Positions 43,826-48,199 of a stretch of 49,667 nucleotides of DNA are shown in pieces; position 1 is the stretch's first letter, and every line of letters begins with the position of its first letter. Source of the stretch: Spirochaetota bacterium (lineage in GTDB: Bacteria > Spirochaetota > Leptospiria > Turneriellales > Turneriellaceae). Location of the stretch: the NCBI GenBank assembly GCA_018240245.1, contig JAFEGD010000063.1, positions 1 to 49,667 on the forward strand. Direction: 5' to 3'. The notes below the pieces were generated by a model. The model was not told where the DNA came from and made no database searches. It saw nothing but the letters and a program-made list of their open reading frames with translations. Position numbers and translations under genes: made by a program.

Positions 43826-45355
43826 ATGCATGCTATATTAAAGAGGCTTCTCAATGCCTCAATTGCGACAAAATTTATCGGCTTTTCGGCGACGCTGTTG
43901 CTGATTGTCGTTTCTGGCGGTAGCCTTGGTTTGATGTTGCTGCAAAAAAAGGCTGCGGTTCATGAAGCGAGCCTCTTTGCCGATGGCATAGAAAAAATGG
44001 CGTTGAGCGGGTTAACGACATTGATGATGACCGGGCAAATGCAGCATCGCGCGCTTTTGCTCGACCAAATTAACGAGTCGGGTATTGTCAGCGATTTGCG
44101 GATAATTCGCGGCCCGAAAGTTGTATCCGTTTTTGGCGAGGGTCGAGTTCATGAAAAAATTAGCACAGATATAGAACGAAAAGTTTTGGAATCAGGCGAA
44201 GCGTATTTTAACGAGGGCAATAATTCCGCATTGCGTATCGTCAAGCCGATACGCGCGCAGAGTAATTATTTAGGAAAAAATTGCCTAGGTTGTCATCAAG
44301 CGAGCGAGAACGAGATTTTAGGCGCCATCACGATGAAAATTTCGCTTTCTGAAATAGAAAAAGAATCTCGCACGCTTTCGTTCAATATTTTTGCGGTTGG
44401 TATGTTTCTCGTTTTTTTCTTGATTGCAGCGCTTTTTCTGCTTTCACGTTTCATAATTCATAATCCGCTCGAAAAACTACTCGAATTGTTTCAACGCTTA
44501 CAGAATAAAGATTACACGCATAAAATCGTTCCGCAATATCGCGATGAAGTTGGCAGGCTGAGCGAAGGAGTAACCGCTTTCTTACAGCACTCGATTGAGT
44601 TATTGACTAAATTGAGTAAGATTGGCGGTCAATTGTCGTTGCTGGCGGGAAAAAACCGTGAGGCTTCGGAGACATTCGTGCAATTGGCACAAAACCAATC
44701 ATTGGTTATTGCTACGACTTCGGCTGCCGTACAAGAAATGAATGCGTCGCTTAAGTTAGAAAAAGAAGAGCTCACAGAATTTATGGATCGAGTCGTGCGC
44801 GTGTCGGTATATGCCGACGCATGGGGCGCCACTTACAAGCACTCTTATCAATCCGAAACGGCGTTTGTAAACGAATTAGAAACTAACGGTCGTAAACTGC
44901 GCAAAGCGTACAAAGTACTATTAGAAACATCGACGGACTTAAGTAATCTACTCGAAGAAAAAATTACCGATCGCGAAAAACGATCAGCGTTGGGCGTTCA
45001 TGCTGCGTTGATAAAGTTGAAAGAAGTTCGCTTGTATCTGCACGACGGAATTCTCGGCTATATCCGCTCGAAAGAATCGATTGGAAAATCGCGCGAAATT
45101 TTGCAAAGTGTCAGCGAAAAGATTGAAGATAATGAGACCGATATCCAGAAAATCGAGGAAATACACGGACAAATAATCGCGCAATTTGCGACGCAGACAG
45201 ACACAAGCGGGGAAATTAGCGATGCGCTCAGCAAATTAGCTGGCGAGGCGACAAGCGTATCGGCATCGGCGGCAGAGCTTGCTCAGGTTTCGCACGAAGC
45301 TTCGCGCTTAGCCGTACTCTTAAAAGATTTGCTCAACGAATTCAAACTGCCGTGA
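43826..45355 (+). CDS. Membrane sensor with periplasmic c-type heme motif, HAMP and coiled-coil output
   Basis: A first helix (about 18-40), a ~140-residue periplasmic domain and a second helix (about 187-210) lead into a HAMP domain and a long coiled coil (about 255-505). The periplasmic domain ends with C153-LG-C156-H157, a CxxCH heme-attachment site like those of Tll0287/DUF3365 sensors, so it may sense redox state or a gas. The cytoplasmic part resembles a methyl-accepting protein, but the conserved hairpin-tip sequence that binds CheA/CheW is not visible. An adenylate cyclase gene starts seven bases after its stop, a likely output partner. A GGTGG ribosome site precedes the ATG. Confidence 0.82.
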   Translation: MHAILKRLLNASIATKFIGFSATLLLIVVSGGSLGLMLLQKKAAVHEASLFADGIEKMALSGLTTLMMTGQMQHRALLLDQINESGIVSDLRIIRGPKVVSVFGEGRVHEKISTDIERKVLESGEAYFNEGNNSALRIVKPIRAQSNYLGKNCLGCHQASENEILGAITMKISLSEIEKESRTLSFNIFAVGMFLVFFLIAALFLLSRFIIHNPLEKLLELFQRLQNKDYTHKIVPQYRDEVGRLSEGVTAFLQHSIELLTKLSKIGGQLSLLAGKNREASETFVQLAQNQSLVIATTSAAVQEMNASLKLEKEELTEFMDRVVRVSVYADAWGATYKHSYQSETAFVNELETNGRKLRKAYKVLLETSTDLSNLLEEKITDREKRSALGVHAALIKLKEVRLYLHDGILGYIRSKESIGKSREILQSVSEKIEDNETDIQKIEEIHGQIIAQFATQTDTSGEISDALSKLAGEATSVSASAAELAQVSHEASRLAVLLKDLLNEFKLP

Positions 45356-45362
45356 CATAGCG

Positions 45363-46526
45363 ATGCGCGTAACTATAAAAATAATTTTTTTTGCGCTATT
45401 GCAAATTGTACCAATTATTTTATATTCCGAGCAGCTTTTTGGCCAACGACCTATAGGACTATTTGTTTTATTGGGCTTTGCTACGTGCATAACTGCGGCA
45501 TATACTACATTCATCATAACTTTTTTTCTGCAGGCACTCGGTAGCGGTGTCGTATTGTTGCTGTACGCTTATCAAATAAAATTCTTAACGCTCGATCTAT
45601 GGCTACACGGCGGCACCGAATTCTTGATTTTTCTCTGCAGCGTCTACATAACTTCAATACGCACCGAACGCGCTGACATCAGAAACGAGTTAAAAATCAC
45701 CGATACGTTACTAAAAAATCTCGAAGGTGAAAAATTAAATCAAGTAAAGAAGATGTTGGAAATCAAACGGCCTGCATACTATGAAGAATTGACAATCCTA
45801 TTCTCCGATATTCGTAATTTCACTTCTCTATCCGAAGTGTTGCCCGCCGATAAAGTTTATTCACTTCTCAACGAATATTATGCCGGAATCGTGGACATCG
45901 TTGCCGAATGCGGCGGTGTTATCGACAAATTTCTCGGCGATGGCATTATGGTCGTCTTCGGTCTGAACGGTCAGAGCGATATTGCGCCCGAAGCGGCGAT
46001 TCGTTGCGCCGTTAAGATGCGACAGTATCAACAGCTCGCGCAAAAAAACGATTTGCCGGGGGGGATTACTCTCTCTGCCGGTATCGGCATCGCTACGGGG
46101 AGAGTAATGGTCGGGTTAGTCGGTTCTTCCGAGCGTTTCGAGTGGACGGTGCTCGGCGACCCCGTCAACTTGGCGGCACGACTTGAGCGAATGACGCGCA
46201 CGATTCCAACGAACATTCTAATCTCCGAAAGCACGTGGGTGCAGGTTCGCGAAAAACCGGGAATGCTAACCCGCATAGTTGCCTATCTTGCGGTGCGCGG
46301 GCGTTTTACAGAAGAGGCAGTTATTGAAGTATTTAACGCCGACACGCCGAGTTTAGCAGCACAAAAGTTAAAAAATCTCTACCGGTTTGAAAATGCGCTA
46401 CGAATGTACAAGCTCGGCTATGAAGACGCGACCGACAGCGTCTTTCGTCAAATTACAAAGGAGTGCCCCGAAGACGCAGTCGCGCACTTTTACGCCGAAC
46501 AGAAGATAATCGATTTTTCTCATTAG
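45363..46526 (+). CDS. Membrane class III adenylate cyclase
   Basis: Three or four N-terminal hydrophobic helices (to about residue 97) and a short coiled linker lead to a class III catalytic domain (about 138-275). The metal-binding aspartates D149 (FSDIRNFT) and D193 (DKFLGDG), the adenine-specifying pair K189/D266 (LGDPVN) and the transition-state N269/R273 (VNLAARLE) are present, so it should make cAMP from ATP. A ~100-residue helical tail follows. It is seven bases downstream of the heme-sensor gene and no receiver or other input domain is fused to it, so the sensor may control it through the membrane. Confidence 0.92.
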   Translation: MRVTIKIIFFALLQIVPIILYSEQLFGQRPIGLFVLLGFATCITAAYTTFIITFFLQALGSGVVLLLYAYQIKFLTLDLWLHGGTEFLIFLCSVYITSIRTERADIRNELKITDTLLKNLEGEKLNQVKKMLEIKRPAYYEELTILFSDIRNFTSLSEVLPADKVYSLLNEYYAGIVDIVAECGGVIDKFLGDGIMVVFGLNGQSDIAPEAAIRCAVKMRQYQQLAQKNDLPGGITLSAGIGIATGRVMVGLVGSSERFEWTVLGDPVNLAARLERMTRTIPTNILISESTWVQVREKPGMLTRIVAYLAVRGRFTEEAVIEVFNADTPSLAAQKLKNLYRFENALRMYKLGYEDATDSVFRQITKECPEDAVAHFYAEQKIIDFSH

Positions 46527-46567: not shown

Positions 46568-48199
46568 TCACCGCGTGGCGCGGTGCCATTCTTTTTCGTA
46601 GTAGTGCACGAGATTTTGCGTCATCAAGGTTTGTATCTCGGTTTTAATCGGCGCCATATCGCTTGGGAAATACGCCATACTCTGCAAAATATCGCGGTTC
46701 AAAAATCGTAGCCGATTACCGATACGGAGTTGACTCGGCATGCTAAGCGGATAATCCGCAAATGCAACAAACCCCCATTCGCCAAAGCTCGGCACGTATG
46801 TGTGGTACGGCAGCGTCTTGAAGCCCTGCGCGGCAATCGTGTTGTGAATGCACCAGAATGCCGAACGCGCGACGAAGGGCGACGTCGATTGCGTCACCGC
46901 CACCGCGCCGGGTGCCATCGCGCGGCGCAGGCGGCTGAAAAAAATATCAGAGTATAACTTGCCGATCGCAAAATTTCCCGGATCGGGAAAATCTAAGACG
47001 ACGACATCGTATTGGAGCTTTGGTTTTTGAATGTAAAGAAAAGCGTCTTCATGGTACACGTACACGCGCGGGTCGTGCAGAGCATTGGCGTTCAATGTTC
47101 TGAGCCAAACGTGATTTTTTGCGAGCGCCGTCACTGCCGGGTCGATGTCGACCAAATCGATGCGTTCGATATTTTCATAGCGCAAGAACTCGCGTACCGC
47201 CAAGCCATCCCCGCCGCCCATAATAAGAATTTTGAGTGCGTGCTCGGCAGTATGATTTTTATCGAAGTGCAATTGTGTCGGCACATGCACGAGCGCCTCG
47301 TGGTATCGATATTCGTCGAAGCTGTTAAATTGTAGGTTATTGTTTAAGAATAACGAAAAATATTCGTGCCACGATGTAATAACTATTTTCTGGTAATGCG
47401 ATTGCTCCGAATAAACGACGGGGTCGGTATGCAGTTCGTGGTCGAGATACGATTGTAGGGGCTTCGAATAAACAAGCGCTAACGTAAGAGCGCAGAGAAC
47501 CGCGCAAGCCTTGAGCAAACTCGCTCGTACCCGAATTTGCTTCTGGAAAATATAGATTGCAACGAACGCGACGACGACGTTGAAAAAACCGGCGATAAGC
47601 GACGCGCGCACGAGTCCCACTTCGGGTCGCAACAATAAAATCGGAAAACTCACCGCCGCGACAAGGCCGCCGATATAGTCTAAAGAAAGCACGCGCGCGA
47701 CTAAGTCGCGAAAGTGCATGCGGTCTTTCAAAATTCTGAGCAGTAGCGGAATTTCTAAACCCACCAACGTACCGATCGCAATGAGAAGCGTATAGAGCAG
47801 GTATTCGTAATGCTCGGTAAACGTGAACAAAAAGAAAAGCAAAGGCGCAGACATGCCGCCGAAAAATGCCAGCGCAACTTCGAGTTCGATAAATTTTTCG
47901 ATCAACTTGCTGTGTGTGCCGCCCGTAGCTGCGGCGTCGAGCATGCGCGCTTTTCCTGTCGGCGCATCGGCGACGATAAATTTACTGAGGTACGAACCGA
48001 TACCCATCGCGAACAGATACACGCCAATCGTACGCGAAAACTGCGTCACGCTATCGCCTAATAGATAGCTCGAAACAGTGCCGGCAATCAGTTCGTAAAC
48101 GAGACCGCACGCCGCAATAATAAAGGCAGAAAAAAGTAAGAGCGAACTTTTTAACCGCGCGCCTTTTTCTGCAGGGCTAATTCTAATGACACTCGCCAT
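46568..48199 (-). CDS. Membrane-fused polyamine aminopropyltransferase (spermidine synthase-like)
   Basis: Six or seven transmembrane helices occupy residues 18-240. The C-terminal half is a spermidine-synthase-type Rossmann domain with GGGDGLAVRE (328-337), DLVDIDPAV (348-356) and LDFPDPGN, where the second aspartate of the gate motif lies. SYLLGDSVTQFS near the N-terminus and YSEQSHYQKIV are typical of the membrane-bound branch. It should join an aminopropyl group to an amine, but whether the product is spermidine is not shown. It follows the coiled-coil gene by three bases. Confidence 0.9.
   Translation of the reverse strand: MASVIRISPAEKGARLKSSLLLFSAFIIAACGLVYELIAGTVSSYLLGDSVTQFSRTIGVYLFAMGIGSYLSKFIVADAPTGKARMLDAAATGGTHSKLIEKFIELEVALAFFGGMSAPLLFFLFTFTEHYEYLLYTLLIAIGTLVGLEIPLLLRILKDRMHFRDLVARVLSLDYIGGLVAAVSFPILLLRPEVGLVRASLIAGFFNVVVAFVAIYIFQKQIRVRASLLKACAVLCALTLALVYSKPLQSYLDHELHTDPVVYSEQSHYQKIVITSWHEYFSLFLNNNLQFNSFDEYRYHEALVHVPTQLHFDKNHTAEHALKILIMGGGDGLAVREFLRYENIERIDLVDIDPAVTALAKNHVWLRTLNANALHDPRVYVYHEDAFLYIQKPKLQYDVVVLDFPDPGNFAIGKLYSDIFFSRLRRAMAPGAVAVTQSTSPFVARSAFWCIHNTIAAQGFKTLPYHTYVPSFGEWGFVAFADYPLSMPSQLRIGNRLRFLNRDILQSMAYFPSDMAPIKTEIQTLMTQNLVHYYEKEWHRATR

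Follow-up and report, generated by a model that had tools for sequence, protein, structure and literature searches.

A chemoreceptor with a periplasmic c-type-heme sensor domain, whose CheA/CheW-contacting tip has been lost, is encoded directly ahead of a membrane-anchored class III adenylate cyclase in the 49,667-nucleotide stretch of Spirochaetota DNA analysed here (the window; Table 1). The best explanation of this arrangement is that the tipless heme receptor (gene 1) has left chemotaxis and controls the adjoining cyclase (gene 2) as a separate subunit, to which we assign a probability of roughly 0.4. The anatomy of the two proteins is well supported. Heme-Cache receptors, membrane cyclases and fusions of the two are already known; a tipless chemoreceptor next to a cyclase that is a gene of its own appears to be new, with one genome as the source. 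No relevant paper came up when the literature was searched for chemoreceptors that are tipless or truncated; as subscription papers were mostly outside the coverage of this search, it counts as weak evidence that the variant is new.

The genes lie on the same strand in different frames, with exactly 7 bases between the stop codon of gene 1 (45353-45355) and the ATG of gene 2; the sensor and the cyclase are separate polypeptides, not one chain. This confirms the coordinates and frames of the original prediction, in which a membrane cyclase starts 7 bases after the sensor. The G+C content of both genes (0.448 for gene 1 and 0.460 for gene 2) is below that of the window (0.524) and of the neighbouring carB (0.56). 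A promoter and terminator scan of the window was near background. On the opposite strand, at 46568-48199, is a membrane protein with a spermidine-synthase-like methyltransferase domain that has 72-79% identity in five congeners. This neighbour is kept in the congeners but is followed there by other genes, so that the junction beside the gene pair is rearranged.

Table 1. Features of the gene pair (window positions) and of two fused relatives (positions within their own loci).
Feature	Position	Strand	Basis
Gene 1, tipless heme chemoreceptor-like protein, 509 aa	43826..45355	+	ORF
TM1, residues 21-39	43886..43942	+	Hydropathy; helix 13-68 in predicted model
Met67, candidate distal heme ligand	44024..44026	+	Invariant in 17 homologues; ligand role by comparison with Met60 of GSU0935
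CxxCH c-heme attachment motif, C153/C156/H157	44282..44296	+	Invariant in 17 homologues; between TM1 and TM2
TM2, residues 188-206	44387..44443	+	Hydropathy
HAMP, residues 211-254	44456..44587	+	Pfam E 1.5e-4, 22.5 bits, cut-off 25
N-terminal arm of chemoreceptor hairpin, residues 256-322	44591..44791	+	Profile weak, 8.6 bits; predicted model
SAAVQEMNAS, residues 299-308	44720..44749	+	Fits chemoreceptor methylation-site consensus; compare SAAVEEMSAS in homologue L048
Distal segment in place of CheA/CheW tip, residues 323-414	44792..45067	+	Like no tip; profile, shuffles, model
C-terminal arm of chemoreceptor hairpin, residues 415-508	45068..45349	+	Profile 35.5 bits, E 3e-10
Gene 2, membrane-anchored class III adenylate cyclase, 387 aa	45363..46526	+	ORF, Pfam, PDB matches
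Membrane anchor, residues 3-99	45369..45659	+	Hydropathy: TM segments, three of them clear and a fourth weaker; lacks a periplasmic domain
Putative linker helix, anchor to catalytic domain, residues 100-138	45660..45776	+	Sequence
Class III catalytic domain, D149/D193, K189/D266, N269/R273	45780..46301	+	Pfam, PDB, alignment
C-terminal tail common to fused heme-sensor cyclase L133	46350..46502	+	Alignment
Terminator-like hairpin 3' of gene 2	46569..46585	+	Scan; weak, 8 such sites against 4.4 in shuffles
Fusion Tll0287-like (c-heme Cache)-HAMP-class III cyclase, single chain, same order	L133 364-2220	-	
Fusion Tll0287-like (c-heme Cache)-HAMP-class III cyclase, single chain, same order	L146 1147-3009	+	

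The heme sensor domain of gene 1

The CxxCH motif of gene 1 is found between two transmembrane segments and is followed by a HAMP domain scoring just under the Pfam cut-off, as expected from the original prediction of a transmembrane protein with a periplasmic CxxCH and HAMP. This HAMP aligns with those of relatives, most of which clear the cut-off. C153, C156, H157 and M67 are invariant in an alignment of 17 homologues, and the motif and M67 are thus more than chance occurrences. Pfam sensor models match only faintly (Mcp40H-20_sensor, PF21563, 14.6 bits against a threshold of 27; Tll0287-like, PF11845, 14.1 against 24.1). Gene 1 misses both gathering scores, and even at E<=0.1 the models match only 4-5 of the 17 aligned homologues.

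As a single sequence, the gene 1 protein has no match in the PDB. With a profile made from an alignment of seven sensors, a search of 177,635 PDB sequences places 3B47 first (E 0.0023) and 3B42 next (E 0.0062), these being the periplasmic c-heme domains of the Geobacter chemoreceptors GSU0582 and GSU0935. Foldseek with the gene 1 model also matches 3b47 (E 3.8e-3), ranked after chemoreceptor entries. The sensor of gene 1 belongs with the c-type-heme Cache domains (GSU0582/GSU0935; sCache_heme). The sCache_heme family was defined in a preprint, where a signalling-type member is reported to be a slow-off NO binder (PMC12889525). M67 stands where GSU0582 and GSU0935 have 'MM', and Met60 is the distal heme ligand in GSU0935 (PMC8396549); M67 is therefore a candidate ligand. 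Cytochrome c assembly proteins are encoded in the source genome, and gene 1 presumably carries covalent heme and takes NO or redox state as its input.

Gene 1 resembles the Geobacter receptors and sCache_heme (PF11845/PF21563) in its two transmembrane segments, periplasmic Cache/PAS-like CxxCH domain, Met in the distal-ligand region, HAMP and chemoreceptor arms. It differs from them in lacking the CheA/CheW tip, in having a cyclase gene directly downstream, and in reaching only 14 bits with the Pfam sensor models.

The cytoplasmic hairpin and its distal segment

Gene 1 had been described as having a coiled coil that is receptor-like and has no visible CheA/CheW hairpin tip. The hairpin is confirmed, and the description can be sharpened. 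A profile built from the cytoplasmic regions of 16 relatives aligns with the C-terminal arm and, weakly, with the N-terminal arm, leaving the tip positions unmatched. The tail of gene 1 scores 39.3 bits with this profile; the maximum is 9.1 bits among 297 shuffles and 12.9 among 300 block shuffles of seven residues, and the tail read in reverse gives 16.0. AlphaFold2 predicts a long symmetrical hairpin (241-380/388-504, with the turn at 381-387 and a tip pLDDT of 40-55). One methylation-site motif is present; several true relatives give none by the same pattern.

In the relatives, the distal ~90 residues, which make up the CheA/CheW tip, are the best-conserved part: the tips have a mean identity of 76% among themselves. 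A recognisable tip, one of the two findings that would have counted against the original prediction, was looked for in gene 1 and not found. When residues 331-425 are compared with the tips of the 16 relatives, 100-191 of 200 shuffles of the segment score equally well or higher, whereas the gene 1 sensor has 29-40% identity to these relatives. Pfam MCPsignal (PF00015) does not match gene 1 even at E<=1, and gene 1 is not among the matches of an MCPsignal search of its own genome. As the arms are homologous to those of MCPs and the tip is absent, the protein is derived from a chemoreceptor yet is not one by the defining feature. These comparisons mark gene 1 as more than receptor-like: it is a chemoreceptor from which the tip has gone, and it is probably uncoupled from control of the CheA/CheW kinase system. 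The source genome does encode CheW-domain proteins and MCPs with tips. Three CheW-type domain matches are found in tandem near an MCP gene in a genome of the genus (G000:C90:6457-7751), two of the three in 812-aa frames.

Gene 2 and the recurrence of the pair

Gene 2 matches Pfam Guanylate_cyc (E 1.4e-19) and, among solved structures, adenylate cyclases (best E 1.5e-25). D149, D193, K189, D266, N269 and R273 are all present and are invariant in a small comparison set. From general knowledge of class III enzymes, we take D149/D193 to serve the metals, K189/D266 the adenine and N269/R273 the transition state, and the set as a whole to be a complete, adenylate-specific site. With its transmembrane anchor, gene 2 is on this evidence a class III adenylate cyclase, predicted to make cAMP, as originally proposed. 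It carries no HAMP or sensor domain. A transmembrane anchor, linker helix and catalytic residues of the same type are also seen in membrane class III cyclases such as Rv1625c, but gene 2 has about four transmembrane segments rather than six, and no orthologue of its anchor was found in the class.

The pairing of sensor with cyclase finds no counterpart elsewhere, which is the second of the findings that would have counted against the original prediction. None of the six closest heme-receptor relatives has a cyclase neighbour, and gene 1 is absent from all six congeneric genomes searched, as is a matching neighbourhood. The pair is known as a single copy. The betaproteobacterial locus L088 does have a cyclase, on the opposite strand. 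This lack of recurrence does not sink the idea of a sensor-cyclase link, because the relatives keep intact tips and should still signal via CheA, and because the searches turned up no other tipless receptor against which to compare the pairing. With 22 class III cyclase matches, cyclases are common in the source genome, and chance adjacency is therefore not negligible (roughly 0.5-1% by our own post hoc estimate). Within one genus (G000-G006) the number of cyclase matches ranges from 12 to 46 per genome.

Outputs of related sensors and of gene 1

A first scan of contigs with the single gene 1 sequence gave no relative; sensor relatives were found in the phylum, and an alignment-profile search of genome contigs gave 25 loci. 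Twenty relatives carry a normal chemoreceptor tip, with Pfam MCPsignal in every one scanned, and others carry GGDEF/EAL outputs. On plasmids there is one distant match only. In Betaproteobacteria, L081, L082, L084, L086, L087 and L088 combine the same sensor type with HAMP-PAS-GGDEF, mostly with EAL, and two Accumulibacter heme-Cache chemoreceptors (L089 5809-8001, L092 5896-7965) carry a c-di-GMP-binding PilZ domain at the C-terminus, beyond the MCP domain.

Of thirty proteins fetched when the phylum was searched with PF11845, two (L133 and L146) are heme-Cache-HAMP-cyclase fusions from the order to which the window belongs; at the other loci, 17 have the tip motif, five more have MCPsignal and four are histidine kinases. 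The cyclase of L133 is 33% identical to gene 2 across 241 aa, a stretch that takes in the C-terminal tail, and Guanylate_cyc is listed among the partner domains of sCache_heme (PMC12889525). As two genomes of this order encode the fusions, the lineage does contain this combination of input and output. The fusions share with the gene pair the sensor class, the HAMP, and a homologous cyclase with its C-terminal tail. The pair differs in being two polypeptides, in its long tipless hairpin after the HAMP, and in the membrane anchor of its cyclase.

Sequence comparison shows that an ancestral heme chemoreceptor lost the tip that contacts CheA and CheW while keeping its sensor, HAMP and methylation-type arms, and tip loss would leave the chemotaxis kinase no longer driven. 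A change in heme redox state or binding of NO may then shift the TM2-HAMP-coil unit, and the most likely output would be the gene 2 cyclase, with cAMP raised or lowered through membrane-helix and coiled-coil contacts. On this reading the pair would do with two genes what the fusions of the same order do with one. Such a link is suggested by the 7-base spacing, the shared strand, the equally low G+C, and the same-order fusions with a homologous cyclase. Against it stand the occurrence of the pair in a single genome, the lack of a cyclase beside any of the six closest heme receptors, the abundance of cyclases, the weak model of the tip, and the direct joining of HAMP to cyclase in L133/L146-type fusions, with no long hairpin between. 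Tentatively, a sensorless cyclase may have captured a tipless heme chemoreceptor as a separate subunit, so that redox state or NO is read as cAMP, and the methylation-type motif would allow CheR/CheB-style adaptation.

That gene 1 is instead a decaying or output-less heme receptor, followed by an independent cyclase by chance, seems rather unlikely. In its favour, the part lost is the best-conserved one, the pair is in one genome, cyclases are abundant, and acquisition or relaxation could account for the lower G+C. There is also a precedent in the HAMP-bearing membrane c-heme Cache protein of Pseudomonas azotoformans, a reported slow-off NO binder described with no downstream or catalytic output domain (PMC12889525), from which gene 1 differs in its roughly 250 aa of chemoreceptor-derived coil after the HAMP. 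However, the frame stays open for all 509 codons, about 92 of them within the replaced segment (a chance of about 0.5% without selection, by our own estimate), and the protein retains its arms, the methylation-type motif and the heme site in intact form. Residues 326-380 also keep a hydrophobic heptad-like periodicity that is reached by 15 of 1000 shuffles, although this is absent from 388-414.

It is improbable that a rebuilt tip signals to a partner other than CheA/CheW or gene 2, or that the protein modifies receptor arrays. The length of gene 1 (509 aa, as against 496-513 aa in same-family relatives), the symmetrical hairpin and the retained methylation-type motif would fit such a role, but a search of 393 genomes of the phylum with the distal segment found only gene 1 itself, so no partner family is suggested, and from general knowledge of chemoreceptors, entry into an array is unlikely without the tip residues. 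An assembly or frameshift artefact masking an ordinary tip is hardly credible even in a draft genome (3.3 Mb, 243 contigs), as the reading frame is continuous and the other two frames across the region are stop-ridden or unlike a tip, and a frameshift-hidden tip is nearly refuted by this inspection together with local alignment against shuffles.

The tip is the part of a chemoreceptor that normally cannot change, and a tipless natural receptor is a test case for leaving the chemotaxis system. If gene 1 drives gene 2, the swap of outputs would have taken place without gene fusion, between two proteins that stay separate, and cAMP would gain a c-heme (NO/redox) input. As rapid control of swimming by cAMP has been reported for Leptospira (PMC9043183), signalling from the rewired receptor could still end at motility.
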